Position numbers and translations under genes: made by a program
Shown: in pieces, positions 8,349-38,808 of the stretch
Layout of the letters: the number at the start of each line of letters is the position of its first letter
How positions within the stretch are numbered: the stretch's first letter is position 1
Assembly (NCBI GenBank): GCA_001592145.1
Contig: BCWJ01000008.1
Coordinates: 62,001 to 126,000 of the forward strand
Reading direction: 5' to 3'
Source of the DNA: Xylanimicrobium pachnodae JCM 13526 = NBRC 107786
GTDB lineage: Bacteria > Actinomycetota > Actinomycetes > Actinomycetales > Cellulomonadaceae
DNA length: 64,000 nt
Notes under the pieces: model-generated
Database searches by the model: none
What the model saw: only the letters and a program-made list of their open reading frames with translations
What the model was told of the DNA's origin: nothing

Positions 8349-8418
8349 CGGGGGACTCCTTGAGATGGGTGTGACTGCAGTGCGGACATGAGGCTGTGGG
8401 GTGGGAGGCGGGCGCTGG

Positions 8419-9291
8419 TCAGCCCTTGACGGCGCCGGCGGCCATCCCTTCGATGACGTAGCGCTGCCCGACGAGGAAGACGATCAGCAGGGGGACGACC
8501 GCCGAGACGGACGCCGCCATGAGCAGGGCGTACAGGGTGCCGTTCGCGTCGGAGAAGTAGCTCATGGCGAGCTGGAGCGTGAACTTGGCCGGGGTGTTGA
8601 GGAAGATCAGCGGGTTCTGGTAGTCGTTCCACGTCCACACGAAGCGCAGGATCGCCAGGGTGGCGAGCGTGGGCTTGCTCAGCGGCAGGACGATGCGGGT
8701 GAACACCCGCCAGTGCCCGGCGCCGTCGATCTTCGCGGCCTCGATGAGCGAGTCGGGCAGGGCGATCATCGACTGGCGCAGCAGGAAGACGCCGTACACG
8801 CTGAACGCCGCCATGAGGATCAGGCCGGCGTGGGTGTCGAGGAGCCCGAGCCGCGAGACGAGCAGGAAGCGCGGGATCACGGTGACCTGGTCGGGGATCA
8901 TCATCGTGGCCAGGAACGCGGCGAACAGCGCACCGCCGGCCCGCACCCTCATCTTCGCGAACGCGTACGCCGCCATCGCGGAGATCACGAGCTGGAGGAC
9001 GACGACGGCCACCGTCACCTTGATGGAGTTGAGGTAGTACAGGGGGAAGTTGAACTCCTGGGTGACCGTCCAGACGTCCTTGTAGTTGTCGAGCGTGACG
9101 TGCGGCGGGATCCACTGGATCGGGAACGCGAACACGTCCTTCTCGATCTTGAACGACGTCGAGAGCATCCACAGCAGCGGGAACAGCATGAACGCCACCA
9201 GGACGGCGAGCGCCGCGGTGCGCACGGCCTTGGCCCAGGGCAGGTGCGGCCGAGCCGGGCGACGGAGCTCCCGAGGGCGGGTCTCACTCAT
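8419..9291 (-). CDS. Carbohydrate ABC transporter permease (MalG type)
   Basis: 290 residues with six predicted membrane helices. The EAA loop that contacts the ATPase is seen as LIEAAKIDGAGHWRVFTRIV, followed by LPLSKPTL. The last residues (FLVGQRYVIEGMAAGAVKG) are the typical MalG-type C-terminus. Its start overlaps the end of the partner permease by eight bases. No MalK-type ATPase gene lies in the locus; such CUT1 systems in actinobacteria commonly share one ATPase (MsiK) encoded elsewhere. Confidence 0.93.
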   Translation of the reverse strand: MSETRPRELRRPARPHLPWAKAVRTAALAVLVAFMLFPLLWMLSTSFKIEKDVFAFPIQWIPPHVTLDNYKDVWTVTQEFNFPLYYLNSIKVTVAVVVLQLVISAMAAYAFAKMRVRAGGALFAAFLATMMIPDQVTVIPRFLLVSRLGLLDTHAGLILMAAFSVYGVFLLRQSMIALPDSLIEAAKIDGAGHWRVFTRIVLPLSKPTLATLAILRFVWTWNDYQNPLIFLNTPAKFTLQLAMSYFSDANGTLYALLMAASVSAVVPLLIVFLVGQRYVIEGMAAGAVKG

Positions 9292-10270
9292 AGGTCACCC
9301 ACTTCTTCTGGCCGCGCAGCTGGACCATGGTGACGACGAAGATGATCGCGAACATGACCCAGGCGGCGGCGCTGGACGTGCCCATGCGGTGCGCGACGAA
9401 CGCCTCTTGGTAGATGTAGAAGGAGATCACCGAGGTCGCGTCGCCCGGCCCGCCCCCGGTGGCGAGGTAGATGAGGTCGAACACCTTGAAGCTGCCGATG
9501 ACGCCCATGGTCGTGAGGAAGAACGTGGTCGGGGACACCATGGGGACGGTCACGGAGGCGAAGGTGCGCCACTGGCCGGCGCCGTCGATCATGGCCGCCT
9601 CGTACACCTCGGCCGGGATGGACTTGAGGCCGGCCATGTAGACGACCACGTTGTACCCGATGGTCTGCCACACCTGGAACGCGATGACCGCCGGCATCGC
9701 CCAGTGCGGGTCCACGAACCAGGACGGCGGGTGCGCCACCCCGACGGACTTCAGCAGCTCGTTGATCGGGCCGTAGCTGGGCTGGAGCATGACCTGCCAC
9801 ACGATGACCGAGGCCACCACGGAGGAGACGTACGGGACGAAGATCAGGAACCGGAACAGCTTCGAGCCGTAGACGTGCTTGTCCATGAACGCGGCGAGCG
9901 CCAGGGAGACGGCGATGCCGACGGGTACGGAGACGGCCGTGAACACGACCGTGTTCCACAGCGTGCGCCGGAACACTCCCCCGTCGTGGCCCGAGAGCAG
10001 GTACCCGAAGTTGCTCAGCCCGGTGAACCTCATCGTCGACAGCGGCGCGATCGACTTCCACTCGACCAGGCTCAGGCCGAGGGAGGCGAGCACCGGGAAC
10101 GCGATGAAGACGACGAAGCCCACGAGCGCCGGGGCGAGGAACGCGAGCGCCGGCCAGGTGTCCCGGTGTCGGCGCGGACGGCCTGGGCCAGGGTGCCGCT
10201 GGGGCCCGGGCAACACCCCGGGAACGCCTGCGAGCGCCGCCCGAGGCGCTCCGATCCTCCACCGTGCCAC
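9284..10270 (-). CDS. Carbohydrate ABC transporter permease (MalF type)
   Basis: 328 residues from the GTG at 10270, chosen because GGAG lies seven bases upstream (10278-10281); an ATG at 10354 is in frame but has no ribosome site and adds low-complexity residues. Six helices follow TWPALAFLAPALVGFVVFIA. The EAA loop is VYEAAMIDGAGQWRTFASVT. First gene of the six-gene uptake/fucosidase operon reading left to FucU. The N-terminus upstream of the first helix is Arg/Pro rich. Confidence 0.9.
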   Translation of the reverse strand: MARWRIGAPRAALAGVPGVLPGPQRHPGPGRPRRHRDTWPALAFLAPALVGFVVFIAFPVLASLGLSLVEWKSIAPLSTMRFTGLSNFGYLLSGHDGGVFRRTLWNTVVFTAVSVPVGIAVSLALAAFMDKHVYGSKLFRFLIFVPYVSSVVASVIVWQVMLQPSYGPINELLKSVGVAHPPSWFVDPHWAMPAVIAFQVWQTIGYNVVVYMAGLKSIPAEVYEAAMIDGAGQWRTFASVTVPMVSPTTFFLTTMGVIGSFKVFDLIYLATGGGPGDATSVISFYIYQEAFVAHRMGTSSAAAWVMFAIIFVVTMVQLRGQKKWVTYE

Positions 10271-10604
10271 GCGTGTTCTCCGTCTCCAGCCGCCGACCCT
10301 GGCAGCGCCGGGGAGCACCGTTCGCCGGTGCGTGGCCGGAACGCTAGCGAGCACTCAGCGACACGTCACGCACGCCCTGTTGCGTTCTGTTTCCTGATGT
10401 GCATGGTTCCGAACAGGCCCAGGTGGGCCGCCTTGCGGGGCGCGGTGACCCCGTGTTCTGCGGAAATCCGCGGCCCGCGCGGCGCAGCGGACGGGCCGGC
10501 CCCGTCGGTGGCGACGGGCGGGTGAAGCGCTGGCGGACGGCTTCGCCCGGTGGCGCGGATCGTTCCTGTCATGCTGGCCGCGTGACCAACCTGAGTGCGG
10601 CGCC
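10271..10604. promoter_or_regulatory. Divergent regulatory region between the sugar-uptake operon and its likely regulator
   Basis: 334 bases with no convincing gene. It separates the leftward importer operon from the rightward DeoR/LacI-type gene. It contains a nine-base perfect palindrome GTTCCGAAC (10406-10414), inside wider inverted arms CCTGTT/AACAGG. This is a candidate operator for the adjacent regulator. I could not pick convincing -35/-10 pairs by eye. Confidence 0.4.
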
Positions 10605-11708
10605 GTGAACGAGCCCGGGCAGGACGTGCCCCTCGCTCCGACCCGGCGCGCCCATCTGCTGGAGACCATCGCCCGCGACGGTGAGGTCAAGGTGGTGCGT
10701 GCCAGCCAGACGCTGGGCGTGACCCCGATGACGATCCGCCGAGACCTGACAGCCCTGGAGCAGGAGGGCCTGGTGCACCGGGTGCGCGGCGGTGCCGTGG
10801 CGTCCTGGACGGCAGAGCCGCGCACGGCGGCCCGGGCCAGCGACGACTGGCTCGCCGTCCTGGTGCCGTCGTTCGACTACTACTGGCCGGAGGTGGTGCG
10901 CGGCATCGAGTCGGAGGCGGCGTCGCACGGGTACCGGCTGGTGGTGCGCGGCTCACCGCGCGACACCCCGGACGAGCGGCCCGCCATCGCGCGCCTGATC
11001 CGCATGCCGCAGGTCAAGGGACTGCTGCTGGCCCCGAACACGACGAGCCCGTTCTTCCAGGACACCCTGGTGCGGCTGCGCACGAGCGGGGTGCCGCACG
11101 TGCTCGTCGAGCGCGACGCCGTGCTCCTGCCGCAGCACGAGGCCATCGACTCGGTGACCACGGACCACGCCCTCGGCGCGGTCATGGCCGCCTACCACCT
11201 GGCGGGTCTGGGCCACCGGCGCATCGGGGCGGCGTTCGCGTACCACTCGCCGCACACGGCACGTCTGGCGCTCGGCTGGCGGGCGGCGTGCCGGCAGCTG
11301 GGGCTGCGCGACGACGAGCACTTCGAGACCCGGATCCACGACCACACGAGCCCGGACTTCCAGGCCACGGTGGGCAAGCTGGTCCAGCGCACCTTGGCCG
11401 CGGGTGCCACCGCCCTGTTCGCGCACGCGGACCCGGAGGCCATCGCCATCGTGCAGCACCTCCAGGACCTGGGCATGCGCGTGCCCGGCGACCTGTCCGT
11501 GATCGCGTACGGGGACGAGATCGCGGGGGTGTTCAACCCGTCGATCACGGCGGTGCACCCGCCCCGCTCGGCGGTGGGGGTCAGCGCGGTCCGGCTGCTG
11601 CAGCGGCGCATCGCGGAGCCCACCTTGCCGGTGCACAAGATCGTGCTGAGTCCCCGGCTGAACATCCGGGACTCGACGGGGGCGCTCACGGCGGCGGCAT
11701 CGGCCTGA
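10605..11708 (+). CDS. Transcriptional regulator: DeoR-type HTH fused to a LacI-type sugar sensor
   Basis: 367 residues. Residues about 8-65 form a DeoR-like winged helix (RRAHLLETIARDGEVKVV, then QTLGVTPMTIRRDLTALEQE, then GLVHRVRGGA). From about residue 78 the protein is a periplasmic-binding-fold sensor as in LacI/GalR (WLAVLVPSFDYYWPEVVRGI; IAYGDEIAGVFNPSITAVHP near the end). This combination is common for sugar-locus regulators in actinobacteria. It is divergent from the importer operon, which it probably controls in response to a sugar ligand. GTG start at 10605; its ribosome site is weak. Confidence 0.88.
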   Translation: MNEPGQDVPLAPTRRAHLLETIARDGEVKVVRASQTLGVTPMTIRRDLTALEQEGLVHRVRGGAVASWTAEPRTAARASDDWLAVLVPSFDYYWPEVVRGIESEAASHGYRLVVRGSPRDTPDERPAIARLIRMPQVKGLLLAPNTTSPFFQDTLVRLRTSGVPHVLVERDAVLLPQHEAIDSVTTDHALGAVMAAYHLAGLGHRRIGAAFAYHSPHTARLALGWRAACRQLGLRDDEHFETRIHDHTSPDFQATVGKLVQRTLAAGATALFAHADPEAIAIVQHLQDLGMRVPGDLSVIAYGDEIAGVFNPSITAVHPPRSAVGVSAVRLLQRRIAEPTLPVHKIVLSPRLNIRDSTGALTAAASA

Positions 11709-11760
11709 CCGGGAGGCGTCCTGGGTCAGGTCGCAGCGCGTCCCCTCCTAGACTCGCGGG

Positions 11761-12447
11761 ATGGCTGTGACGGACGAGGCGATCGTCAAGATCAAGCAGA
11801 TGCTCCTGGCGGGTGACCTGCGTCCGGGCGACCGGCTGCCGCCCGAGAAGGAGCTGAGCGAGCGCCTGGGCCTGTCCCGGTCGTCGCTGCGCGAGGCGGT
11901 CAAGGCCCTGGAGGTGATCCGGGTGCTGGACGTGCGCCGCGGGGACGGCACGTACGTCACGAGCCTGGAGCCGCGCCTGCTGCTGGCGGCCATCGGGTTC
12001 GTGACCGACCTGCACCAGGACGGCGCGATCCTGGAGATGTTCGCGGTGCGGCGCATCCTGGAGCCTGCGGCGGCGGCGCTCGCCACGCAGCGCGCCGGTG
12101 CCGCCGACGTCGAACGGCTGCGGGAGCTGGTGTCGCAGACGGCTCCGGACGCGCCCGTGGAGGATCTCATCGAGCACGACGTCGCGTTCCACCGCGCCGT
12201 CGCGGACCTGTCGGGCAACGGCTACCTGAGCGGCATCCTGGAGCAGCTCTCCAGTGCCACGCTGCGCGCCCGCGTGTGGCGCGGGGTCCTGGAGGCGGGG
12301 GCGGTCACGCGGACGCTGGACGAGCATCGCGGCATCGTGGCGGCCATCGCGGCGTCGGACCCGGCGTTGGCGCACGCCCTGGCGACGGCGCACATCGCGG
12401 GCGTGGAGCAGTGGCTGGAGCGCGCCGTCGCGCGTACGCCGAGCTGA
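11761..12447 (+). CDS. GntR-family regulator, FadR subfamily (FCD domain)
   Basis: 228 residues. N-terminal GntR winged helix (LRPGDRLPPEKELSERLGLS, RSSLREAVKALEVI) is followed by an all-helical FCD effector domain with probable metal-binding histidines (EHDVAFHRAV; residues HRGIV further on). FCD regulators usually sense sugar acids or related carboxylates, so a fuconate-pathway intermediate is a reasonable ligand. It lies between the importer side and the catabolic genes of the fucose locus and is convergent with the lactonase gene. Confidence 0.9.
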   Translation: MAVTDEAIVKIKQMLLAGDLRPGDRLPPEKELSERLGLSRSSLREAVKALEVIRVLDVRRGDGTYVTSLEPRLLLAAIGFVTDLHQDGAILEMFAVRRILEPAAAALATQRAGAADVERLRELVSQTAPDAPVEDLIEHDVAFHRAVADLSGNGYLSGILEQLSSATLRARVWRGVLEAGAVTRTLDEHRGIVAAIAASDPALAHALATAHIAGVEQWLERAVARTPS

Positions 12448-12477
12448 CCCGGCGGTGCGGGCGGCCCACCCACCGGG

Positions 12478-13308
12478 TCAGGCCGAGCGCGGCGGGCCCA
12501 GCCGGTACGCGCGGATGGCGGTGCCGGCCAGGACGTCACGCTGCTCGGCGGCGCTCAGCTCACCGATCAGCTCCCGCACGACGGCCCAGTGCGGTGCGTA
12601 CCCGCCGTCCGGCACCGTCATCGGCCAGTCTCCGCCGTACAGGAGCCGCCGGGGGCCGAACGCGTCGAGGGCGACGTCCCACACGGGCCGCAGCGCCCCG
12701 GGGGTGAACGGTTGCCCGGGCCGCTGCAGCCCGGAGACCTTCGCGACCGTGCCGGGCCGCGCCGCGACGGCCCTCACACCCCGCTCCCACGCGGGCATGG
12801 CATCGGTGCCCCGCGGCGGCTTGCCCAGGTGGTCGAGCACCACCGTCAGCCCGGGGACGGCGTCGGCGAGCGCCGCGACGGCGGGCAGGTGCCAGGGCCA
12901 GGCGTCGGGCACGTCGAACGCGAGACCGGCGCGCACGAGCAGGCGCAGGCTGGTGCGCACGGAGGGCAGGTCGAGGAAGTCGAGTCGTGGGTCGTCGTGC
13001 ACCAGGTGGCGTACCCCGCACAGCCGGCGGCCGTAGGCGTCGAGCTGGGCGCGGGCCACGTCCGGGGCGTCGAGCCGCACCCAGCCGACCACCCCGGCCA
13101 CGATCGGGTCGGTGGCCGCGGCCAGCATGGCGCGGGTGTCCGCCTCGGAGTCCTCCGCCTGGACCAGCACGGCGGAGTCGACGCCGCCCGCCCGCAGCAC
13201 GGGGCGCGCGTCGTCCAGGGTGAAGGTCCGGTCGAGCGGCCCGGGCGGGATCCAGGCGTATGCGCCGTTCCGGCGGTCCCACAGGTGCAGGTGCCCGTCG
13301 ATGATCAT
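12478..13308 (-). CDS. Amidohydrolase-family lactonase, probably L-fuconolactonase
   Basis: Opens L-fucono-lactone to L-fuconate after fucose oxidation. 276 residues of the COG3618 amidohydrolase type. Metal-ligand-like residues are visible: HLHLWD (His6 and His8 region), GVRHLVHDDPRLDF, VLDHLGKPP, and YGGDWPM near the C-terminus. The ATG at 13308 overlaps the stop of the aldo/keto reductase by ATGA. Third gene of the leftward catabolic operon fucD-AKR-lactonase. Confidence 0.87.
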   Translation of the reverse strand: MIIDGHLHLWDRRNGAYAWIPPGPLDRTFTLDDARPVLRAGGVDSAVLVQAEDSEADTRAMLAAATDPIVAGVVGWVRLDAPDVARAQLDAYGRRLCGVRHLVHDDPRLDFLDLPSVRTSLRLLVRAGLAFDVPDAWPWHLPAVAALADAVPGLTVVLDHLGKPPRGTDAMPAWERGVRAVAARPGTVAKVSGLQRPGQPFTPGALRPVWDVALDAFGPRRLLYGGDWPMTVPDGGYAPHWAVVRELIGELSAAEQRDVLAGTAIRAYRLGPPRSA

Positions 13309-14279
13309 GGGGCCAGCAGCCCGGCCCCCACCAGGTCCGCCCACAGTGCGTCGGGGACGTGCGCGGCCATCCGGTCGGCGTTCTGCCGCACCTGGTCGGG
13401 GCGCCCGCCGCCGACGACGACGGACGCGACCAGGGGGTTGCGCAGCGGGTAGTGCAGCGCGGCCGTGGGCAGGTCGACGCCGTGCTGCGCGCACAGGGCC
13501 GCGATGCGGCGCACGCGGGTCAGCAGGAGGGGCGGGGTGCGGCCGTAGTCGTAGCGGACGGAGTCGGCCGGGTCGTTGCGTGCGGTCAGACCGGAGTTGA
13601 ACACGGCGGCGGCTACCACGCGCACTCCGTTCTCCCGGCAGGCGGGCAGCACGGACACCACGGCCGACGTGTCGGCGAGCGTGTATCGTCCGGCGACCAT
13701 GAGCAGGTCCACCAGGCCGGACCGGGCCGCGCGGGCCAGGGTCGCGGTGACCATCGACCCGACGCCGACGGCCCGGACCAGGCCGTCGTCGCGCAGGGCG
13801 GCGACGGCGGGGAGACCTTCGCGCAGGCCCCGGTCCAGGTCGAACCGTTCGGGGTCGTGCAGGTAGGCGATGTCGACGGCGTCGAGACCCATCCGCTCCA
13901 GGGACTCCTCCAGGCTGCGCCGCACGCCCGCGGAGGTCACGTCCCAGACCCTGCGCCGGGTGGCCGGCACGGCGAACCCGGCGGCCAGGTCGAGCTTGCC
14001 GGTGCCCCGGCGGTTGGGGACCAGCAGCCGTCCCACCTTGGTGGAGACGACGTACTCGGAGCGGGGCTTGGTGCGCAGGAACTCGCCCAGCCGCCGTTCC
14101 GAGAGGCCCAGGCCGTAGTGCGGCGCGGTGTCGAAGTACCGCACCCCCGCGTCCCAGGCCGCCTCGAGCGCGGCGTGGGCGTCGTCGTCGCTCATCGCCC
14201 GGTACAGGTTGCCGACGTTCGCGGCGCCGTACCCGAGCCGGCCGAGGGCCAGCTCTTCGACCACCGCGCGCTCAGTCAT
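13305..14279 (-). CDS. Aldo/keto reductase, probably L-fucose dehydrogenase
   Basis: 324 residues. Catalytic tetrad typical of AKRs: Asp in YFDTAPHYG with its Tyr, Lys in VVSTKVGR, His in [10 protein letters not shown]. It is similar in layout to the D-threo-aldose (L-fucose) dehydrogenase branch, with [11 protein letters not shown] after the lysine and [16 protein letters not shown] near the end. It would oxidise L-fucose C1 with NAD(P)+, giving the lactone for the next gene. It overlaps fucD upstream (8 bases) and the lactonase downstream (ATGA). Confidence 0.87.
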
Positions 14280-15555
14280 GGTGGTACCGGTGGGCGGCGA
14301 GGGAGTCGGCGAGCATCTGGGCGCCGCTGCCCGGCGCGGTCGGAGCCACATAGCGTCCGCGGCGCACGACGGCCGGGGTCACGAAGTGTTCGTGCAGGTG
14401 GTCGACGTACTCGATGACGCGGTCCGCCAGGGTGCCCGAGACGGCCACGAAGTCGAACATCGCCAGGTGCTGGACGGTCTCGCACAGCCCGACCCCGCCG
14501 GCGTGGGGGCACACGCGCACGCCGAACTTGGCGGCCAGCAGCAGGTTCGCGACGTTCTCGTTGACCCCGGCCACGCGGCAGGCGTCGATCTGGAGCACCT
14601 CGATGGCCCGCACCTGGAGGAGCTGCTTGACCATGACCCGGTTGGCGGCATGCTCGCCGGCGGCCACCGGGATGGGCCGCACGCCGCGGGCGATGGTCGC
14701 GTGCCCGATCACGTCGTCGGGGCTCGTGGGTTCCTCGATCCACGCGATCGAGGAGGGCGCCAGCGCCCGCACCCAGTCGATGGCCTCGGCCACGCCCCAG
14801 CGCTGGTTCGCGTCGATGGCGATCGCGACGTCCTCGCCCACGGCCTCGCGGGCCAGGGCGACGCGCCGCACGTCGTCGCACAGGTTCGCACCCACCTTGA
14901 GCTTGATCTGGGTGTACCCGTCGGCCACCGCTTCGCGGCACAGCCGCACCAGCTTCGCGTCGTCGTACCCGAGCCAGCCGGGGGTGGTGGTGTAGGCGGG
15001 GTAGCCGGCCCGCAGCAGCTCGGCCGCGCGCTCCTCGCGCCCGGGCACGGCCTTCTCGAGCAGCTCGAGGGCCTCGGACGGCGTGAGCACGTCGGTGAGG
15101 TACCGGAAGTCCACGAGCGAGACGATCTCGGCGGGGCTCATGGCGGCGAGCACCTGCCACAAGGGGCGGCCCTCACGCTTGGCGCGCAGGTCCCACAGCG
15201 CGTTGACGACGGCGCCGATCGCCATGTGCGCGATGCCCTTCTCGGGGCCGAGCCAGCGCACCTGGGAGTCGTGCACGAGCTCGCGCCACAGCCCGCCCAG
15301 GTCGGCCAGCGTGGCCTCCACGTCGCGACCCACCACATGGTCGCGCAGCAGGTCGATGGCGGCGACCTGGACGTCGTTGCCGCGCCCGATGGTGAACACG
15401 AACCCGTGGCCGACGTGCCCGTCTGCGGCGTCGGTGCCCACCCGCAGGTAGGCCGCCGAGTAGTCCGGGTCGGGGTTCATCGCATCGGACCCGTCGAGGT
15501 GCTGCGACGTCGGGAACCGGACGTCATCGGTGATGAACGAGGTGAAACGAGGCAC
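14272..15555 (-). CDS. fucD: L-fuconate dehydratase (enolase superfamily)
   Basis: Dehydrates L-fuconate to 2-keto-3-deoxy-L-fuconate. 427 residues from the GTG at 15555, which has GAGGAG just upstream. With this start the residues fall at Lys218/Lys220 (QIKLKVG), Asp248 (AIDANQRW), Glu274 (WIEEPT), Glu301 (AAGEH) and His351 (CPHAGGVGL). As far as I recall this is the same numbering as the characterised Xanthomonas campestris enzyme, and this supports both the start and the function. First gene of the leftward catabolic operon; its promoter carries a likely operator. Confidence 0.95.
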
Positions 15556-15608
15556 GGCGCTCCTCGTGGGCTGGGATGGTGCGGCCACAGGTCCGTGACG
15601 CGCGGCAC

Positions 15609-29907: not shown

Positions 29908-30450
29908 ATGACGGAGCCCAGAGATCACACCAGTTCGACGCGGGATGACGCGCTACGACCGAGGCGCGCACACGCGGTCCTCGAAGCGCTGATCCAAGAC
30001 GAACCTGTGGTCGCGATCCACGGCCCCCGTGCCGTGGGCAAGTCGACCCTGCTCCGATCCGTTGCGGAAGCACACGGGGTCGGCGTCGTCGACCTCGACG
30101 ACCCCCGTGCGCTCGACGCGGCACAGGCGAACCCGAGCCTGACGACGTCTGCCACGCGCCCCGTGTGCATCGACGAGTACCAGCACGCGACCGTCCTCCT
30201 CGACGCGCTGAAGGCTCAGCTCAACGCACAGGGATCGGTTCCGGGCACCGCGATCATCACCGGCTCAACTCGGCAGGACGCGCTGCCGTTGTCGACCCAG
30301 GCGCTCACCGGGCGCCTGTACGCCATGAGCCTGTGGCCGTTGTCCCAAGGAGAGATCGACGGCGTTCACGAGGGGTTCCTCGAAGGCCTTGCCGACGACG
30401 CACAGGCGCTCGTCACCGCACAGCTCGCGTCGACCACGACACGGGCTGAG
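29908..30450 (+). pseudogene. AAA ATPase with DUF4143, 5' half (interrupted gene)
   Basis: 181 codons before the insertion. Walker A GPRAVGKS (residues 39-46), Walker B RPVCIDEYQHA (Asp89-Glu90), and sensor-like IITGSTR. After Glu181 the frame enters the inserted element and stops at 30675. The 3' half lies at 38035-38808 in the same frame. Joining STTTRAE to YVARVCRGGFPDALRR gives a continuous 438-residue protein of the usual family length. Members are DNA-binding-like ATPases of unknown role; some resemble toxin or transposition-related proteins. This copy is presumably inactive. Confidence 0.9.
30446..30450. repeat. Target-site duplication, left copy (CTGAG)
   Basis: CTGAG directly precedes the first base of the insertion and is repeated at 38030-38034 directly after its last base. 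Five bases is the duplication length known for ISEcp1 in the IS1380 family. Confidence 0.85.
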
Positions 30451-32073
30451 CCTGGATCCACCGTCGATGGTTCTTGGCGGTTGTCGGTGACGTTCCGCTG
30501 TGGATGTCTGGGAGTTGGGCATGCGGTGTCCGCCGCTGTGTGCGGCTCTTCCACGTCGGTTCTCCGGTCATGCCCGTGCGGGGCTGGGCGGTCAGGACGG
30601 TGCTGGGGTGGGTGGGCCGGTGGCGGTGTCCCACAGGTTCGTCCACGCCTGAGCCCAGGGCCAACTGGTGGGTAGGTGCATGATCAGCCGTCTCCCGGTG
30701 GCGGCGAGGCGGGCCGGGGTCGCGATGATGGTGCGCAGCATCGTGGCCATGCGGGCCTTGCCCGTCCTGGCCGCGACGGCCGCGGCCCGGCAGATGTTGA
30801 ACGCGATGACCGCGAACGTGAGCCAGGCGGCGTTCGCGGCGAACTTCCCCGAGGGTAGGTGGGCCAGGGGGCCGGCCTTGAGCTCGGCGATGACCTGCTC
30901 GACGATCGCGTGGCCACGGTGATGGCGGTCGGCTTCTACCGCGGACAGGGTGGTGTTCGTGATGAACGCGTGGTGGCAGTAGGTGGTGAACAGCTCGCCC
31001 TGATCAGTGTCGGGTGCGTCGCCGAGGCGCCTGACGCGTCGCACGACCAGCCGGCAGGTGACCTGCTGCGCTTTGGGGTGGGAGACGAACGCGGTGAAGC
31101 CGGTCTCGGCGACCTCGGCCTCGGAGACCCACTCGCCCGTCTCCTCGTCAAGGATCGCGTCGGGGTACTCGATCGGGGTCCACGCCGTCTCGGGGATCTG
31201 GGAGATCGCCCGGGTCACCGTCTTCCAGGCCGGGATCGTGAAGGAGAACCACGCCCCCGCCTTCACGGCGGCGGCGACGTTCTTCGCTGTGGCGAACGCG
31301 GAGTCCCCACGCACCCACACCTGCTGGGTCGGGCCGGTCACCGCCTTGACCGTGGTCAGGGTCCGCTTGAGGTGCCAGTCGGCGCCCTTACCCGACCTCG
31401 TCGACCCCTGACGCAGCGAGCACTCCGCGACCACCGGCGCCGTCGAGGGTGTACTGATCGTGGCGATCAGCGCGTTCAGCCCGCGCACCCCGGAGTACCC
31501 GAACCCGGCACCGTCCTTGGCGTATCCGTGGACCTCACGGATCGTGTCGTCCACGTCCACGAACACCAGGTCATCCGCCCCGACCAGGGCCGGGACCTTC
31601 GCGGCGAGCCCGGCCAGGAGGCGACGGTGCGCGGCGTGTAGCTGCAGTACGTGCCCGTGGGTGAAGGAACGCAGGAAGGTCCCGATCGTCGACGGTGCCC
31701 GCACCGGACCGAGCACCCGGGCCGTGCCACCGGCGCGCAGCACGTTCAGGTCATCGATGCTGTCCGCCCCGGCCAGCATCCCCGCGATCACCGTGCGCGC
31801 CTTGACCACCACACTCGCCGCGGGCAGCGTGCACGCCTCGTCAATCACGTCGGACAACCCGGCCGACTCCGCGAGTTCGAGGACCGGCACCAGGCCAGCC
31901 GTGGACACGAGGTTCGGATCGTCGAGTACCGGCACGATGCCATGGCATGCTTTCATTACTGAGTGCCCCTCTGCTTGGCCTGGTGCTGTCGTCGCACACA
32001 ACATCATCCCAGGTCAGCGGGGCACTCCGGCCACCTACGACCGGCGCGCCACACACCGAACGGTGGACTCAGG
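30451..32073 (-). mobile_element. IS1380-family insertion sequence, complete
   Basis: 1,623 bp with imperfect inverted ends (12 of the first 14 bases identical between 30451 inward and 32073 inward) and one intact transposase gene read leftward. Size fits IS1380-family elements. Its right end is followed by CTCAG rather than the CTGAG found at its left, so it did not insert alone at this spot. Confidence 0.87.
30592..31956 (-). CDS. IS1380-family transposase
   Basis: 454 residues from the ATG at 31956 (GAGGGG upstream); an in-frame ATG at 32007 would add 17 residues. DDE-type: first Asp in VFVDVDDTIREVHGYAKDG, second in VWVRGDSAFATAKN, Glu in HAIVEQVIAELK. The conserved ending WLTFAVIAFNICRAAA is typical. 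The frame is intact, so the element could still move. It is transcribed away from the cargo, unlike ISEcp1, where the transposase reads towards it. Confidence 0.93.
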   Translation of the reverse strand: MKACHGIVPVLDDPNLVSTAGLVPVLELAESAGLSDVIDEACTLPAASVVVKARTVIAGMLAGADSIDDLNVLRAGGTARVLGPVRAPSTIGTFLRSFTHGHVLQLHAAHRRLLAGLAAKVPALVGADDLVFVDVDDTIREVHGYAKDGAGFGYSGVRGLNALIATISTPSTAPVVAECSLRQGSTRSGKGADWHLKRTLTTVKAVTGPTQQVWVRGDSAFATAKNVAAAVKAGAWFSFTIPAWKTVTRAISQIPETAWTPIEYPDAILDEETGEWVSEAEVAETGFTAFVSHPKAQQVTCRLVVRRVRRLGDAPDTDQGELFTTYCHHAFITNTTLSAVEADRHHRGHAIVEQVIAELKAGPLAHLPSGKFAANAAWLTFAVIAFNICRAAAVAARTGKARMATMLRTIIATPARLAATGRRLIMHLPTSWPWAQAWTNLWDTATGPPTPAPS

Positions 32074-32122
32074 CTCAGCCTCGGAGGGTGGTGGACGAGG
32101 CGCCGACCGGCTAGGAGATCCG

Positions 32123-34330
32123 TCAGACGGTGAGTTCGTCGGGTACGGATTGTCCCGGGAGCCAGGTACGCGCGGCGGTGCTGATGATCGAGGCCGAGAC
32201 CCACCAGACCGCGAGTGATGCCAGTCCTGCGAAGGCGGCGGTGCCGAGGATGACCTCCCACGGCAGTTGGTATCCGTAGACGGAGGGGCGGATGGGATAG
32301 GCGGTCACGGCGCTGGCGGCTACTGCCATCACGAGTCCGATCACGACCGCGGGCATGAGCCGGACACCGATGATGGTGGTGATGGCCGTCTTGTCGATGC
32401 CGACCGTGGACAGCGGGGCGATCTCGTCGGCGGACCGGATGATCTCGGCGGTGGTGTTGGCGAAGGCGCCTACGAGGACCAGGAGGATTCCGACGAGCCC
32501 GAAGAATGAGAGCCAGCGTGCTTGGTCGTAGGCGACCAGCGACCCGACGAGCCAGGAGGCCCCTGGTGTCTGGATCACGGGGAGGGGTGCGATCTCGTCG
32601 GTGACGGCCGCGGCGAGCTCGACGTGGTCGATCAGTTCGCCGTCGATGCGGAAGAAGAACGTCTCGAGGCTGCCGCCGGCAGGTGCTGGTTTCGTCTCGA
32701 TGGGCGTTGTGCCGAGTCCTGCGCTGACGAGGTAGTCCAGCGCGACCGGGTCGATGTCGGCCCGTGCCTTGTCGATCGTGTTTCCCGTCGTCATCCCGAG
32801 GCGTTCTAGGACCTCGTCGCTGGTCGTCGCGCGCTGGACGATCTCCATGTCACCGTCCAGGCCGTCGAGCCAGAAGTCGACGGCGACGAAGCCGCTCGGG
32901 AGGCTGTCCAGCGCGTGCAGCGAGCTGCGGCCGTCGCGTGCGCTTGCGGCGACGAGGTGCCCGTCGAGGGAGGCTGCTGTCGCTGCCGCATCGCGGTCGA
33001 CCCCGAAGCTCATGGCGGCGGACGACAAGAGCACGACGACCACGGTGCCCGCGGCGACGACGGAACCCACCCGCACGCTTGCACTGCGATGCCGCTCCAG
33101 TTGGCGAACTCCGATGAGCTGCCCTGCTCCCCCATGGCGGCGTACCCGGGCCGAGAGCATGCGGGTCACCGCCCCGAGGACCGCATCGATCAGCGAGGGC
33201 AGGGTCAGGAGGATGCCGACGGTGATCGCCACGGTCGCGAACAGGATGACGGGCTGAGCCCAGTCGAGATCTGGGCGCATGCTCAGCAGCGCGATCGGGA
33301 TGAGCGCGCCGAGCATGGTCACGCACAATGCGGCGGACCCGAATCGTGAGCGTTGGCGTGCACGCCCGGCCTTGCGTACCCGGGTCGGCTGGCGGCGGCG
33401 GGCGGAGGCGAGAGCCACGGCGCCGGCGGCGAACACGCACCCGATGGCGGCGGCTGCGACGACCTGCACCGCGTGGGGGCGAAGGTCCTCGGGCAGGATC
33501 TCAAAGCCGACCATGGGCAAGCGCAAGCCCGAGGTCACCGTCCAGACGGAGAGAGCCACCGCCGCTGTGGTTCCGGCGAGCAAGGCCCACGCGTTACCGG
33601 CCAGGATCGCCCGCGCCCGCTGCCACGGGGAGGCGCCCATCCGCTCGAGCGCCCTGAGTGCGCTACCGACGTCTCGGTCTCCCAGGCGACCACCCCCGAT
33701 GGCCAGGACGACGCCGCCGATCAGCGGGAACGGCACCATCGCGGTCAGGAACGTCGTCAGGGGTTGCTGATAGAGGATCTCCCCGACGACAGCTCCGCCG
33801 CCGTGCCAGGCGCTGATCGGCACGAAGCTCGACTCGTCGACCTGCTCGGCCGAGCGGAACACGTAGAGCAGCCGCTCCCCGGGGCTGACCAGGGCTGCGC
33901 GATCGATGACCGCCGCGATCGGCCCGTACCGTGCGGCGATGAGCCCATCTTGATCCAGGTCCTTCAGGGCAGCGGACACGGCAATCTGCCCTGGGTCGGG
34001 CCACTCGGTCAGCCCCGGAGGAGGAGGCGCTCCGGGATCGACCCGTACGTAGTAGTACACGCCGATGTACTGGTTGTCGATGAACTCCCACCCTGTGGCG
34101 AGCAACGCCATCGGTGGCTCCGCTTCGGACTCGGTCATCTGGCCCGAGCGGGCGAGTGCGCGGTCCATGCGCCCGTCGTACACCGCCGACGCGATGACTG
34201 CGCTCGCCGCGACGCTACCGATCGTCAGCACCGCCAGGGTGATCACGAGCGCACGGATCCACCGCACTGGGCCACGCGGCCGGACCAGTCGCGCGAGCAC
34301 CGCCGCCTTGTGCGGGTGAGTCACTGCCAT
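32123..34330 (-). CDS. FtsX-like ABC exporter permease
   Basis: 735 residues. Membrane helix near residues 25-50, a large extracytoplasmic domain (about 55-185), a central bundle of helices, a second extracytoplasmic domain (about 460-600), and a final helix bundle (FFGLVGILLVLVGAFANTTA; PAVVIGLVMAVAASAVTAYP). This is the two-domain FtsX/MacB-type plan, and its length resembles the large membrane proteins found with actinobacterial bacteriocin exporters. It overlaps the ATPase gene by 10 bases. Likely exports, or protects against, the peptide encoded upstream. Confidence 0.82.
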   Translation of the reverse strand: MAVTHPHKAAVLARLVRPRGPVRWIRALVITLAVLTIGSVAASAVIASAVYDGRMDRALARSGQMTESEAEPPMALLATGWEFIDNQYIGVYYYVRVDPGAPPPPGLTEWPDPGQIAVSAALKDLDQDGLIAARYGPIAAVIDRAALVSPGERLLYVFRSAEQVDESSFVPISAWHGGGAVVGEILYQQPLTTFLTAMVPFPLIGGVVLAIGGGRLGDRDVGSALRALERMGASPWQRARAILAGNAWALLAGTTAAVALSVWTVTSGLRLPMVGFEILPEDLRPHAVQVVAAAAIGCVFAAGAVALASARRRQPTRVRKAGRARQRSRFGSAALCVTMLGALIPIALLSMRPDLDWAQPVILFATVAITVGILLTLPSLIDAVLGAVTRMLSARVRRHGGAGQLIGVRQLERHRSASVRVGSVVAAGTVVVVLLSSAAMSFGVDRDAAATAASLDGHLVAASARDGRSSLHALDSLPSGFVAVDFWLDGLDGDMEIVQRATTSDEVLERLGMTTGNTIDKARADIDPVALDYLVSAGLGTTPIETKPAPAGGSLETFFFRIDGELIDHVELAAAVTDEIAPLPVIQTPGASWLVGSLVAYDQARWLSFFGLVGILLVLVGAFANTTAEIIRSADEIAPLSTVGIDKTAITTIIGVRLMPAVVIGLVMAVAASAVTAYPIRPSVYGYQLPWEVILGTAAFAGLASLAVWWVSASIISTAARTWLPGQSVPDELTV

Positions 34331-34986
34331 GTCAGCCCTCCCGCACGAAGCATCCCGGTGCGCTGCGCCCTGGCGGCGACAAGAGGCTCATGGGTCACCA
34401 CGACCAGCGCACACTGCCACTGCTGCGGCGCCGAGAAGATGACATCCGCAATCTCCTCACGCGCTTCGACGTCGAGAGAACCGGTCGGCTCGTCCGCCAC
34501 GATCAGCGATGGACGGTTGATCAGAGCACGAGCCAACGCGGTGCGTTGCCGCTCACCACCGGAGAGCCGGTCCGACGACAGATCGACGTCGCCTACCCCC
34601 ACGGCCTCCAGGAGTTCGCGGCCACGCGCACTCGCCTCAGCGGCCGGTACCCCGGCCAGCAGCGCGGGCACGATGACGTTTTCCAGCGGCGTCAACGCGG
34701 GCAGGAGTTCGCCGTGCTGGAAGACCGATCCGATGTGCCGCTGCCGCATCCGGGCAGCATCGCGCCTCCGGCGCCCATCCATCGATTGCCCGGCGATGTG
34801 GACGGCACCGCTCAAGGGCGCCATCAAGCCGAGAAGAATGTTGAGGAGCGTCGACTTTCCCGCCCCTGACGGCCCCATGATCGCGACCGCCTCACCGGCC
34901 TCCACGCTCACGGAGATCTGGTCGAGAATCGTTCGCTCACCAAACCGGAAAGTGATCTCCCGGACATCGAGCATGGGTTCCGTCAC
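34321..34986 (-). CDS. LolD/MacB-type ABC transporter ATPase
   Basis: 221 residues from the GTG at 34986, preceded by GAGAGG; an ATG four codons later (34974) is possible. Walker A MGPSGAGKSTLL, Q-loop SVFQHGELLPAL, signature LSGGERQRTALARAL, Walker B LIVADEPTGSLD, His switch VVVTHEPLVAA. The ADEPTGSLD form is typical of ATPases that pair with FtsX-like permeases, as the next gene does. Confidence 0.92.
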   Translation of the reverse strand: MTEPMLDVREITFRFGERTILDQISVSVEAGEAVAIMGPSGAGKSTLLNILLGLMAPLSGAVHIAGQSMDGRRRRDAARMRQRHIGSVFQHGELLPALTPLENVIVPALLAGVPAAEASARGRELLEAVGVGDVDLSSDRLSGGERQRTALARALINRPSLIVADEPTGSLDVEAREEIADVIFSAPQQWQCALVVVTHEPLVAARAQRTGMLRAGGLTWQ

Positions 34987-35035
34987 TCTGTACCTCTCAC
35001 AGACATCCAGGGCCGGGTCTTCACCGTGAGCCAGT

Positions 35036-35069
35036 CCGGTTGGCGCCGGAGGATGCGGGCGCCAACCGG
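35036..35069 (-). terminator. Hairpin between peptide gene and exporter genes
   Basis: CCGGTTGGCGCC and its exact complement, 12-base perfect stem, ten-base loop. It lies 80 bases after the peptide stop and 50 bases before the ATPase start. It may be a partial terminator that leaves the exporter less expressed than the peptide. Confidence 0.6.
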
Positions 35070-35150
35070 CACTGGATCGCCATGGCAGCGGTGCTGCCGT
35101 TGTACTGCCCACACCGGGCATCGTTCACGCTGTCTCGGAAGCCGAGGCTG

Positions 35151-35497
35151 CTACTTCCAGGCGCCGCACTGCATCCCGCCCAAGAGCGCTCCTGAGCGGC
35201 ACGCCAGGAGCCCGTTGACGTTGTTCGCGAGGCCCGTCTTGGTCGCCGTCGTGCCGGGGCCGCTCTTGTTGTTGAAGGCGTAGACGGTGCCCCCGCTACC
35301 GCTCAACGTGTACTGCGCCTGAACCCAGCGACCGTCGTCGCTGTTGTCCTTGACGGAGACCGATTTGGTACCAGTCGTTGCCGTGGCCCGCTGTCCACGC
35401 TGACCGTCGCCGTGAGCGCGTGCGCGGCACCCATGCCACCGACCGAGAGCGCTCCAGCAACGGCAACACCGATGAGTCGACACACAGACTTCTTCAT
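35151..35497 (-). pseudogene. Small secreted peptide precursor with a -1 frameshift
   Basis: The ATG at 35497 opens a Sec signal peptide (MKKSVCRLIGVAVAGALSVG then GMGAAHA). About 33 codons in, near 35396, the meaningful frame shifts by one base: the start frame gives VDSGPRQRL and soon loses sense, while the other frame gives GQRATATTGTKSVSV and continues to TAG at 35151. The rebuilt product is about 115 residues and ends with a two-cysteine segment (LLACRSGALL, GGMQCGAWK). Gene order (sigma factor, membrane protein, peptide, ABC exporter) suggests a bacteriocin-like or signalling peptide. A sequencing error or recoding could also explain the shift. Confidence 0.65.
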
Positions 35498-35655
35498 CTT
35501 CGTGATCCTTCCTCGCAGCGCACGATGGTCCGGATCGGATGACACGGCTACTCGTGCGTGTGCGTTCGGTGTGAGCGTGGCCGGTTGGCCCGCTCACTCT
35601 GTACGTGACATCTGGGCCGTGGATTTACGCAGGATTCCGTATGGCGTGCGTCACA

Positions 35656-36714
35656 TCACGGGCCGGGTGTGCCGATCGTGTCGACCATCCCGGCGCTCAG
35701 CCAGACCTCGAACCCGGTGACGGTGGGTTCGGTGATACCGAGCGTCGGGTCGGTCACGGTGATGGTCTCGGTTCCGATGAGCTGACCGGTGGTCGTGGAG
35801 ACGTGGAGCACGAAGACCTGGTGGGAGCCGGTGTCGGGCCGGTCCCAGGTGATTGCGAACCCGTGCGCCGGTTGCCCGTCGCGTGCCGTGGTGAGCCCGA
35901 GGTGACGGACGGCGGGCTCGTCGGCGAGAACGTCCCACATGGCGGCGGCGAGGTCGGACGGGATGACGTAAAGGCCATGGAGGTCCGCAATCTCACTGGC
36001 GAGCGTCCACGCCCGCTCCTGCGCGCTTGCGGTGGCAGGCAGCGCCGAACGGTCCAGGAGGGCCGCGCGAAGGGCTTGCGGGTCGCGCGGCAGCGTGTCG
36101 GGCAGGCGCGGGTCGAAGGTCCCGGCCTCGGCGGTGTCGGTGGACTCCAGCACACCCGGTGCCGGGGTGTCGGTCGACTTGAGGAGGCCGTCCAGGTCGA
36201 GGGGGGCGCCGCGTGACTGGTCCATGCGTGCCGACCCGTCTGGTCCCAGCCACATCTGCGTGACGGTCGGGATCAGGTCGGCCTCGACGTCGTCGCCCGC
36301 GTGCACGGACATCAACCAGCCCGAACGTGCGACGTAGTGCACGTCGCCGGTGCCCGACAGCGGGTAGTTCCGTGCGGCCAGCGCCGCCTCGCGGAGCTCC
36401 TGGTGCGCGGCGGGTGCATCGGCCGCGTCCTGGGGTGTGGCGATGGTGTACTCCAGGGGTGCCGGGAACGCCATCGCGGGCGCCGACCCGAACACCATGG
36501 TCATCGCGAACGTGACCGCGGTCACCACGGCGGCTGCCGACGCCAGCCATGCAGTCCGCGTGACCGTGCGGCGCCTGTCGGCGGCACGGATCCGCCACAG
36601 CATCCGCTCAACATCGCCGGGGTCGGGGAGGTGCTCGGCCGGCAACGGCAACACGCCTTGCTCGTGCAGGAGCGCGCGCAGCTCGTCGACAACCCGCTCA
36701 TCGTCCGAGGCCAC
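35656..36714 (-). CDS. CU044_5270-like membrane-anchored protein, possible sigma-factor partner
   Basis: 352 residues. Short cytoplasmic part with ELRALLHEQGVLPLPAEHLP and VERMLWRIRAADRR, one helix (about 55-78, ASAAAVVTAVTFAMTMVFGS), then a long exported domain (WLMSVHAGDDVEADLIPTVT; MWLGPDGSARMDQSRGAP). Proteins of this kind commonly follow ECF sigma factor genes in actinobacteria; an anti-sigma role is plausible but unproven. GTG start at 36714 lies inside the sigma gene (17-base overlap). Confidence 0.72.
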   Translation of the reverse strand: MASDDERVVDELRALLHEQGVLPLPAEHLPDPGDVERMLWRIRAADRRRTVTRTAWLASAAAVVTAVTFAMTMVFGSAPAMAFPAPLEYTIATPQDAADAPAAHQELREAALAARNYPLSGTGDVHYVARSGWLMSVHAGDDVEADLIPTVTQMWLGPDGSARMDQSRGAPLDLDGLLKSTDTPAPGVLESTDTAEAGTFDPRLPDTLPRDPQALRAALLDRSALPATASAQERAWTLASEIADLHGLYVIPSDLAAAMWDVLADEPAVRHLGLTTARDGQPAHGFAITWDRPDTGSHQVFVLHVSTTTGQLIGTETITVTDPTLGITEPTVTGFEVWLSAGMVDTIGTPGP

Positions 36715-37291
36715 GACTCCTCCCTTCCATCTGCGCGTCGACCAGCGCCATCTCGGTGTCGACGGATGCCATCTCGGTATCGACCAGCGGGCGCAGCCGC
36801 CGCAGCGCCCGGGTCACCCGCGCACTGACCGTCGAGGTCGGGCGCCCCAGGATCGTCCCCACCTCGGCGAGGGTGAACCCGCAGATCGCCACCAGGTACA
36901 CCGACGCCCGTTCATGCACGGGCAACGCGCCGAGCCAGCGCTGCACCCGGTCCGTGGCAACGACCTCGTCGGTGGCCGCAGACACGCCAGGCGGCTGGGC
37001 CGCGACGGCATCCACGACACACCGGTCCCGGTCGTAGGCCCGGTACAGCTCGAGGACCTTCATGTGCGCGATCCCGAACACCCACGCCCGACACCGGTCG
37101 TTTGTCGGCGGGCGATCACCCCAACGGCGCCACGCCGTCTCGAACGCCGCGGAGACAACGTCGTCGACATCGTTTGGGCCGACCTGGCGCAGCACGTACC
37201 CATGAAGATCGGCATACGCGGAACGCGCGAACTCCTCGAAACCCTCGATCTCAGTCCCAGGACCGGGGCCGTGGCGGAAGCGATTTAGCAC
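36698..37291 (-). CDS. ECF-type RNA polymerase sigma factor
   Basis: 197 residues from GTG at 37291. Region 2: FARSAYADLHGYVLRQVGPN, DVDDVVSAAFETAWRRW. Region 4: HERASVYLVAICGFTLAEVG, TILGRPTSTVSARVTRALRR. The C-terminus carries a 21-base direct repeat (plus-strand 36727-36788) that encodes VDTEMASVDTEMALVD. The start overlaps the stop of the I36-like gene, so the two are coupled. It probably drives the cargo operon; no recognition promoter was identified. Confidence 0.87.
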   Translation of the reverse strand: MLNRFRHGPGPGTEIEGFEEFARSAYADLHGYVLRQVGPNDVDDVVSAAFETAWRRWGDRPPTNDRCRAWVFGIAHMKVLELYRAYDRDRCVVDAVAAQPPGVSAATDEVVATDRVQRWLGALPVHERASVYLVAICGFTLAEVGTILGRPTSTVSARVTRALRRLRPLVDTEMASVDTEMALVDAQMEGRSRGLGR

Positions 37292-37677
37292 GACGTCGTG
37301 GTCAAGAACCGCACCGATCCGGCGGGCACCGACACCGACGCAGACTGCACCCCGGCTGCGAAGCACTGGGACATCCCCGTTCCCCCAGCACCCGAGAAAA
37401 CGCGGACGGCTCGCCCGGACCGGTTCCAGACCGACTTCGCGCTCGACAATCCGGTCACGTTCTGGTTACCGGTCGTGCCGTAGAAGGTACCGGCATACAT
37501 GCTGCCGGACCACAGGCAGAAGCGACCGGACGCACACGAAGCCGAGCTCAAGGGCACCACTTCCAGAGCAGATGCCGCCGCGGGGGAGGCAAGACCGAGC
37601 GACAGCGTGCAGAGAACAAGCAGGGCTGCGGCGAGTCGAGGACGGCGGACATACGGACGGCGCATCGAACGGACCAT
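37285..37677 (-). CDS. Secreted peptidase-inhibitor I36-like small protein
   Basis: 130 residues. Basic start and hydrophobic signal (LAAALLVLCTLSLGLASPAA), then a Cys-rich domain with SCASGRFCLWSGSMYAGTFY, the pattern of the I36 (SMI) inhibitor family; four cysteines in the mature part, the last being the C-terminal residue. ATG 37677; an ATG four codons later (37665) is possible. First gene of the leftward cargo operon. Role with the exporter unknown. Confidence 0.78.
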   Translation of the reverse strand: MVRSMRRPYVRRPRLAAALLVLCTLSLGLASPAAASALEVVPLSSASCASGRFCLWSGSMYAGTFYGTTGNQNVTGLSSAKSVWNRSGRAVRVFSGAGGTGMSQCFAAGVQSASVSVPAGSVRFLTTTSC

Positions 37678-38016
37678 GGTCGAGTGTCGGGCACGCGGCC
37701 GCCGCGGCGTCGCGTTGGCGCTGACCGAACCGTTCGGCAGACAGTAGGTCCCTCCGACTTGGTTGCGGTCAGCCAACTGTCTGCTCGCGCCGGACACCTC
37801 GGCCTTCAGCTGAGCCGTCGAGTTTCGACTCAGCAACTTGATCGCCGGGCCCTGCTGCGCCGCCAGTGTTGCGATCGCCCGCCCGAAGCCTCTTCACCCG
37901 CGAGGTGACGGGGCTTCACCGCGAACTCCTCCACGCCAGAAGAACCGTCTCCGCAGATCAGCGGCCACGTTCATGGCGCTCGGGCACAAGCCAGACCCAC
38001 CCGGCTGGTCGCCGAG
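37678..38016. other. Right margin of the transposition-unit cargo
   Basis: 339 bases without a supportable gene. It holds a hairpin at 37885-37917 (GAAGCC/GGCTTC outer arms, TCACC/GGTGA inner arms) and ends at the solitary terminal repeat. The upstream region of the I36-like gene, with its promoter, must be here, but I see no clear -35/-10 pair. Confidence 0.5.
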
Positions 38017-38029
38017 CGGTGGATTGAGG
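38017..38029. repeat. Solitary IS-end-like sequence closing the transposition unit
   Basis: CGGTGGATTGAGG; its complement CCTCAATCCACCG matches the IS left end in 11 of 13 positions and the IS right end in 11 of 13. It is directly followed by CTGAG (38030-38034), the right copy of the target duplication. Confidence 0.82.
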
Positions 38030-38034
38030 CTGAG
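38030..38034. repeat. Target-site duplication, right copy (CTGAG)
   Basis: Matches 30446-30450 exactly. With one copy removed, codons GCT GAG TAT GTC read through in the ATPase frame. Confidence 0.85.
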
Positions 38035-38808
38035 TATGTCGCCCGCGTGTGCCGCGGAGGGTTTCCCGACGCACTCCGACGCACCAACACGGCCCGTCGC
38101 CGCTGGTTCGACGCGTACGTCGACCAGAGCGTCCAGCGCGACGCCGTCGAGCTCGCGCGGGTCCGGCAGCGTCAGGCCCTCTCCGAGGTGCTGAGTCGAC
38201 TCGCGGGCCGGACCGCGCAGATCCTCAACGTCAACCAGATCGCCGAGGGACTCGAAATCACGCGAGCCACCGTCGAGACCTACATCCGCCTGCTCGAAGA
38301 CCTCTACCTCGTCGCCCGACTCCCCGCGTGGGGCAAGACGCTCGCGGCTCGTGCCACGCCGAAGCCGAAGATCCACGTCGTCGACTCCGGGGTTGCCGCA
38401 CGCCTGATGCGCCTCAGCGAGGAGCGCCTCGCCGTCGGCGACCCGTCGACGAACACCGAGTTCGGCCACCTACTCGAGACCTTCGCCGTCGGCGAGCTTC
38501 GCAAGCAGGCATCCTGGTTCGACGCGCCGCCGAGCCTTGGGCATTGGCGAACCAGTACGGGCCACGAGGTCGACCTGATCGTCGAGCTCGATGACGGCCG
38601 CGTGCTCGGGTTTGAGATCAAGGCCGGCGAAAGGATCTCGGACGCCGACCTGCAGGGCCTGCGCGAGCTGCGCGACCGCATCGGGCCGCGGTTCGTCGCG
38701 GGAGTCGCTCTGTCGCTCGGCACGCGTTCGTACACGTACGAGGACCGCCTCCACGTCATGCCTCTCGACCGCCTGTGGCAGCCCCCTGCACCGAACCTTG
38801 ACCGGTAG
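38035..38808 (+). pseudogene. AAA ATPase with DUF4143, 3' half (interrupted gene)
   Basis: 258 codons including stop, in frame with 29908-30450. Contains the linker YVARVCRGGFPDALRR, a winged-helix-like NVNQIAEGLEITRATVETYI, and the DUF4143 nuclease-like fold: HVVDSGVAARLM, FGHLLETFAVGEL, HEVDLIVELDDG and LGFEIKAG, the E..D..ExK pattern. A GTG at 38047 could give a free-standing C-terminal fragment, but no ribosome site is evident. Confidence 0.88.

Follow-up and report, generated by a model that had tools for sequence, protein, structure and literature searches.

Introduction

Within the IS1380 family, ISEcp1 (ISEc9) keeps its left end (IRL) and uses imperfect right ends lying at varying distances downstream, with a 5-bp duplication around the IS and the adjacent genes, according to the accessible text of two reports (PMC12116815, PMC12589106). 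A second member, ISPme1, takes along stretches of varying length at its 3' end in structures termed TMos (PMC9330008). The available sections of that source place gene-mobilising elements on a continuum that leads to unit transposons and to transporter ISs (tIS), the latter being defined in general terms. Passenger-carrying IS481, ISL3 and ISNCY elements are listed in the accessible part of PMC6305408, with no IS1380 element among them there, and Table 3 of that paper includes ISArsp10, a solo IS1380 element of 1,667 bp with the end CCTTGATCCACCGAT, the direct repeat CTTAG and no passengers. An IS1380 unit built on the 5' side was not found in the literature that we searched, from which subscription journals were mostly absent and which is no proof of absence. 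Here we describe a unit of this kind in the window, the whole 64,000-nt stretch of Xylanimicrobium pachnodae DNA analysed, together with four sister units in two other genomes of the genus.

Results

An IS1380 element with three ends

The unit occupies positions 30451-38029 of the window (7,579 bp) and forms a single transposed piece between two copies of CTGAG. Its boundaries, its IS part and its terminal segment are the following:

30446-30450, + strand: target-site duplication (TSD) CTGAG, left copy
30451-30463, + strand: right end (IRR) of the IS1380 element and outer end of the unit, CCTGGATCCACCG
30592-32007, - strand: tnpA, IS1380-family transposase of 471 aa in an unbroken frame (NF033539, 302.7 bits against a cut-off of 180; Pfam DDE_Tnp_1_4, 91.7 bits)
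32061-32073, - strand: inner left end, the probable ancestral IRL, CCTGAGTCCACCG, one mismatch to the group consensus
32074-32078, + strand: CTCAG adjoining the inner end, possibly half of an older target duplication
37776-38029, - strand: terminal segment specific to the units, 254 bp, 80.6% identical to that of sister unit L022
38017-38029, - strand: probable recruited distal end, CCTCAATCCACCG, full match to CCYNRATCCACCG
38030-38034, + strand: target-site duplication CTGAG, right copy

A preliminary description of this DNA had claimed that the three ends share CCT...TCCACCG, and that the outer pair lies 7,579 bp apart within a CTGAG duplication that the inner end lacks; both points were borne out. 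The inner end adjoins CTCAG, which is one base off the CTGAG at the IRR and is itself a legitimate target of the IS group, while the two outer flanks agree. Since the inner end is retained with only one mismatch, the bare IS in the window might still be able to move.

Chance pairing of end-like sequences was considered and rejected. Allowing up to one mismatch to CCYNRATCCACCG, we counted three left-type and five right-type ends in the window, and 30451-38029 is the sole pair in it with matching 5-bp flanks at a separation of 600 to 16,000 bp. The exact consensus occurs at 12 sites in the 4.0-Mb genome to which the window belongs, two of them being the outer ends of this unit, and at no site of that genome when the consensus is read backwards; the sister units and the empty site described below likewise speak against chance. 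Two IS copies bordering the cargo, as in a composite transposon, were not found, the genome holding one intact IS copy and one fragment, and no second tnpA was seen in the 64-kb window. A tnpA fragment of 180 bp (L028, G000:C14:105270-105449; 83% identical) lies on another contig and is perhaps the remnant of an older copy.

The match of the transposase to its family profile above the cut-off places the element in IS1380, and its short ends with CCT...TCCACCG and a 5-bp duplication are those of solo relatives, as seen in 14 further TSD-flanked elements. One solo IS with its own duplication (L109, CTGAG), from Luteimicrobium xylanilyticum, is 1,634 bp long. Between the window unit and sister unit L022, tnpA has a dN/dS of 0.27, a ratio which indicates that the transposase of the unit is kept under purifying selection. 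In Corynebacterium pacaense, an IS1380 element (L123, 9840-12822) is interrupted by an apparent IS3-type element and keeps its CTAAG duplication; we had considered this locus as a 2,983-bp unit of ISEcp1 polarity and rejected it, as the extra DNA corresponds by eye to the two frames of the IS3-type element, leaving an interrupted solo IS.

Target preference and insertion sites

Besides the five units, the scan for ends found 14 TSD-flanked elements, and all 14 lie in YTNAR targets, a count which covers TSD-flanked elements alone because the scan keeps matching pairs only. It divided 55 loci into the 5 units, 14 loci with another TSD-flanked pair and 36 without a pair, several of the last being explained by contig ends, runs of N, or missing or diverged ends. 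At least one of the 36, L104, has both ends and flanks that differ (CTCAG/CTCAC); L106 was missed by the scan, its ends carrying more mismatches though its flanks agree. No other 5'-side unit was seen by the scan within reach of the fetched loci.

Because the IS group prefers YTNAR targets, the agreement between the two CTGAG copies weighs less than a match of 1 in 1024 would suggest. The perfect 5-bp duplication, which the preliminary description had read as a signature, is thus present, but it is weaker evidence than it looked. The reality of the unit is settled independently, because homology to an ATPase crosses the join, four sister units carry duplications of their own (one of them CTGAA), and an empty site matches at 98%. 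The gene that the window unit splits, of the AAA_14/DUF4143 ATPase type, lies in two parts:

29908-30450, + strand: 5' part of the interrupted ATPase gene (AAA_14; PF13173, 67.1 bits)
38035-38808, + strand: 3' part of the interrupted ATPase gene (DUF4143; PF13635, 142.4 bits)

Read across the join, the ATPase protein has matches in 28 of the 221 genomes of the family, its own included (E <= 1e-60), many of them near full length; the closest match in another genome (G039) stands at 57% over residues 15-432. An empty ATPase site in relatives, for which the preliminary description had proposed to look, was not recovered, none of the 11 genus genomes yielding the window's own site in unoccupied form at the DNA level, and no excised or circular form of the unit was seen. 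A search of these 11 genomes with the joined flanks of each of the four sister sites recovered an unoccupied paralogue of the G001 site in G001 itself (G001:C1:1217049-1217447), matching at 98% over 400 letters of joined flanks and carrying a single CTGAG. Unoccupied matches also crossed the junctions of the three G003 units, at 76% for L022 (a neighbouring paralogue of its site), at 73% (in G001) and 68% (in the genome of the window) for L023, and at 78% (in G010) for L024.

Sister units lacking the inner end

Of the 11 genomes in the genus sample, that of the window included, three carry the two parts of the unit together: the genome of the window and G001 once each, and G003 three times. 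The G003 units (L022, L023 and L024) are 8,780, 8,781 and 8,780 bp long with the duplications CTGAG, CTGAG and CTGAA, respectively, and the G001 unit (L025) is 8,657 bp long with CTGAG. L022 is 99.99% and 99.97% identical to the other two G003 units, and 99.95% and 99.92% identical, in two pieces, to L025. The sister units are bounded by the IRR CCTGAATCCACCG on the left and by CCCAAATCCACCG on the right. DNA between the IRR and this distal end has been transposed as one piece to five sites, spread over three genomes, each time with a 5-bp duplication just beyond the outer ends, and 5/5 units are homologous in their distal boundary and terminal segment. G003 has six exact consensus ends, every one of them an outer end of one of its three units, and full-length IS matches equal the unit count (3 in G003 and 1 in G001), copy numbers that are taken from the genus-wide count, two other searches having scored two candidates per genome.

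Homology of the sister units to the IS of the window ends at 32054, short of the inner end, and no inner left end was found in any of the four. The sister units thus moved without it, and movement therefore needs the outer ends only. The three near-identical G003 copies document only a rise in copy number, whether by copying or by excision. With five units, matching duplications and an empty site, the central proposal of the preliminary description, that an IS1380 element transposed with a distant surrogate end, is supported. Its reading of the locus as one-ended mobilisation stands insofar as the distal end is used, but not as one event, since the same distal end recurs in all five units and the inner end is lost from the sisters. 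Among 72,556 plasmid records, nine match the unit, all of them inside the IS part, and none reaches 80% coverage.

Cargo genes and exchange of exporter modules

All cargo genes of the window unit lie on the - strand beyond the inner left end:

32123-34330, - strand: permease-like protein of 735 aa with an FtsX C-terminal domain (FtsX 19.2 bits, below the Pfam cut-off of 25.5)
34321-35121, - strand: ABC transporter ATPase (ABC_tran 117.7 bits)
35151-35597, - strand: small secreted-peptide gene with two overlapping frames (35303-35545 and 35151-35597)
35656-36714, - strand: CU044_5270-like protein (NF038083 95.7 bits, just below the cut-off of 100)
36698-37366, - strand: ECF-type sigma factor (Sigma70_r4 39.1 bits; TIGR02937 52.4 bits, cut-off 42.9)
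37285-37836, - strand: secreted Inhibitor_I36-domain protein (PF03995 43.7 bits, cut-off 21.1)

The position of the CU044_5270-like protein after the sigma gene suggests that it is an anti-sigma factor, and we refer to it as the anti-sigma-like protein. Profile searches gave no family match for either frame of the peptide gene. In the sister units, the permease, ATPase and peptide genes of the window are replaced by a MacB-like ABC protein, a peptidoglycan-binding-domain protein, an uncharacterised protein and a second I36-domain protein. The anti-sigma-like frame is full length in one of the four sister units (L023, residues 2-352 in one frame) and is a partial match or split into two pieces in L022, L024 and L025; the function of the cargo is therefore not clearly kept.

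Related cargo occurs at two non-mobile loci, one in G003 (L026, homologous to window positions 32120-37706) and one in G002 (L027, homologous to 35567-37775). L026 is the counterpart of the exporter variant of the window, and L027, at lower identity, that of the sister units. The terminal segment (37776-38029) shows no homology in either of the two loci. The exporter of L026 is of the permease and ATPase type and that of L027 of the PG-binding protein and ABC type, and L026 also holds an unbroken 133-aa counterpart of the small secreted-peptide gene (5314-5715, - strand).

Between the window and L022, dS is 0.30 for tnpA and 0.30 for the anti-sigma-like gene, and because these values are equal, IS and cargo appear to have long travelled together. 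The sigma and I36 genes have lower values than tnpA (0.16 and 0.19, respectively), for which their overlapping frames may be the cause, but divergence along the unit is uneven. Between the window and L026, dS is 0.29 for the permease and 0.52 for the anti-sigma-like gene. As the permease of the window is thus closer to L026 than the anti-sigma-like gene is, modules have probably been exchanged, and the exporter modules behind the sigma/anti-sigma/I36 part seem to be interchangeable.

The age of the two left ends and the origin of the arrangement

Inward of the inner end, the sequence is similar to that on the IRL side of solo relatives (z 23.1 for L109, 20.0 for L111 and 12.5 for L103), and the sequence inward of the window's distal end is similar to none of the 26 IS1380 ends compared (best z 1.8). 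Because the former resembles the left side of a solo IS and the latter does not, we take the inner end to be the ancestral left end and the distal end to be the recruited one. Among the same 26 ends, the sister distal segment reached z 4.0, with the right end of L138, and 3.2, two right ends in all, so that the distal end may conceivably descend from some IS end, as the remnant of a second IS1380 copy.

We consider it very likely that the unit consists of an IS1380 element paired with a left-type end beyond the cargo in a fixed arrangement, and that it represents an established transposon lineage rather than a one-off capture. Repeated one-off captures of the ISEcp1 or TMo type, in which each unit would stem from a separate misreading of a weak end-like sequence beside the IS, have their precedent in the IS1380 relatives ISEcp1 and ISPme1, which do so as far as the accessible parts of the reports describe (PMC9330008, PMC12116815, PMC12589106), and they would agree with the occurrence of two unit types with different exporters. 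Separate captures are nevertheless very improbable, given a distal boundary and terminal segment that show homology in every unit, a distal end that matches the consensus in full rather than weakly, and the equal dS of tnpA and the anti-sigma-like gene.

The relative age of the left ends could also be reversed, the outer distal end being the original one, the cargo having been inserted between it and tnpA, and the inner end being a duplicate or a coincidence. The outer end does fit the group consensus better than the inner one, and the sister distal segment is weakly similar to the right end of L138, as noted; yet it is the inner end that has a solo-like left side behind it and the window's distal end that has none, which makes this order hardly plausible. 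A history of two independent events, in which a cargo island reached the ATPase gene in some other way and its edge was later the target of a bare IS, would be in keeping with CTCAG at the inner end as a legitimate group target. The flanks of the IS itself differ (CTGAG and CTCAG) while the outer flanks match, and in four sister units IS and cargo move together; secondary insertion of a bare IS was rejected on these grounds, and the chance of two such events is next to negligible. The preliminary description had named two observations that would tell against its own reading, cargo at this site without the IS and a secondary IS insertion with a duplication of its own. The former was looked for and not seen, the IS-free cargo of G003 and G002 lying at other loci and lacking the terminal segment, and the mismatched IS flanks give no sign of the latter.

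Possible transcription of tnpA from the cargo operon

Cargo and tnpA lie on one strand, with the cargo upstream. On that strand, a consensus scan for simple sites found no terminator-like site from the stop codon of the permease gene to the start codon of tnpA, and the RNA fold of the cargo/tnpA junction is not unusual (z 0.51). A promoter-like match upstream of tnpA lies inside the permease gene (32397-32370). Because an operon is placed upstream on the same strand and no terminator-like site intervenes, tnpA may be the last gene of the ECF-sigma operon. The locus might then be an IS turning into a transposon by relocation of its 5'-side end, from a solo form through a relic-end form to an end-deleted form multiplied in G003, with tnpA under the ECF-sigma operon and a stress regulator driving transposition; in this full form we regard the proposal as unlikely. 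If true, it would be the reverse of ISEcp1, with a regulator in the cargo driving transposition instead of the IS driving its cargo.

A family-wide search with the anti-sigma-like protein gave matches in 11 of the 221 genomes (E <= 1e-40), and one of eight distant cargo loci (L179-L186) has IS1380 sequence close by. At this locus (L179, G019:C1:1836000-1855900, positions 8156-15558), in another genus, I36, sigma, anti-sigma and ABC cargo is enclosed by two ends of IS1380 type, a right end at 8790 next to CTCAG and a left end at 14489 next to CTGAG. The two transposase pieces there cover residues 311-466 and 13-327, their overlap being a perfect direct repeat of 84 bp, and the cargo is inverted relative to the transposase in comparison with the window. 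L179 could be a circle of IS and cargo integrated within the transposase gene, or a trimmed composite, and may be a second case in which cargo of this kind is linked to IS1380. In L180, a 13-mer resembling an end precedes the I36 gene; it was taken as chance, since its surroundings do not align with the terminal segment of the units and its flank is TTATG.

Discussion

The history that we favour for the unit would begin, in an ancestor of the species concerned, with a single IS1380 element beside a chromosomal cluster encoding a secreted I36-domain protein, an ECF sigma factor, an anti-sigma-like protein and an ABC exporter. The transposase would then have come to pair its native IRR with a second left-type end past the far side of the cluster, the first capture being presumably an ISEcp1-like choice of a surrogate end. 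The CTCAG at the inner junction may be the surviving half of a duplication from an earlier time, when the IS inserted on its own, and the sister lineage would have had its cargo fixed by losing the inner end. The window unit would be an intermediate that keeps a relic of the inner end. The window and sister units could be successive or parallel stages, and exporter modules would have been swapped between units and chromosomal loci once the two kinds of unit had diverged.

Taken together, the solo IS, the unit with a relic inner end and the unit free of an inner end give the picture of an IS that is turning into a transposon with passengers. In this lineage a capture on the 5' side is now fixed, the old end having decayed and the enlarged element having multiplied in one species, whereas IS1380 capture as known from the accessible literature is 3'-sided, with ends that vary from event to event. 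The step from an IS that takes its neighbours along to a transposon with permanent passengers is thereby opened to direct test, and solo, relic-end and end-deleted forms can be compared to map which features of an end the transposase requires. IS1380 mobilisation of gene clusters also extends beyond resistance genes.

Among described systems, solo actinobacterial IS1380 elements such as ISArsp10 have ends and a target that, in the data available for them, fit the ends and the YTNAR preference seen here, and they differ in having no passenger genes. Like a tIS, the four sister units carry passengers inside their outer ends with no internal IS end; the window unit, unlike a tIS, retains its inner left end. 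In mechanism, the units resemble ISEcp1 units and the TMos of ISPme1 and IS1247a (PMC9330008, PMC3281130), as far as the accessible portions of these reports describe them. Like ISEcp1 units, the five units pair the native end of a single IS1380 element with a distal surrogate end and have a 5-bp duplication around IS and cargo, and like TMos they move a single IS1380 copy with adjacent DNA, which in 5/5 units lies between the native and the distal end. The side is the opposite one: ISEcp1 keeps its IRL and replaces the IRR, with cargo downstream of tnpA, and ISPme1 takes DNA of varying length from its 3' side, whereas in the window unit the IRR is kept and the IRL replaced. The tnpA gene runs towards the kept IRR and the cargo lies beyond the IRL, upstream of tnpA, confirming the orientation opposite to ISEcp1 that the preliminary description had pointed out. 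The surrogate end differs as well, for in place of imperfect, weakly matching ends at varying positions, all five units use one fixed distal end with the full consensus. On this comparison, the lineage fits the mechanism class of ISEcp1 and the TMos, and departs from these units in the side of capture and in the variability of the distal end.
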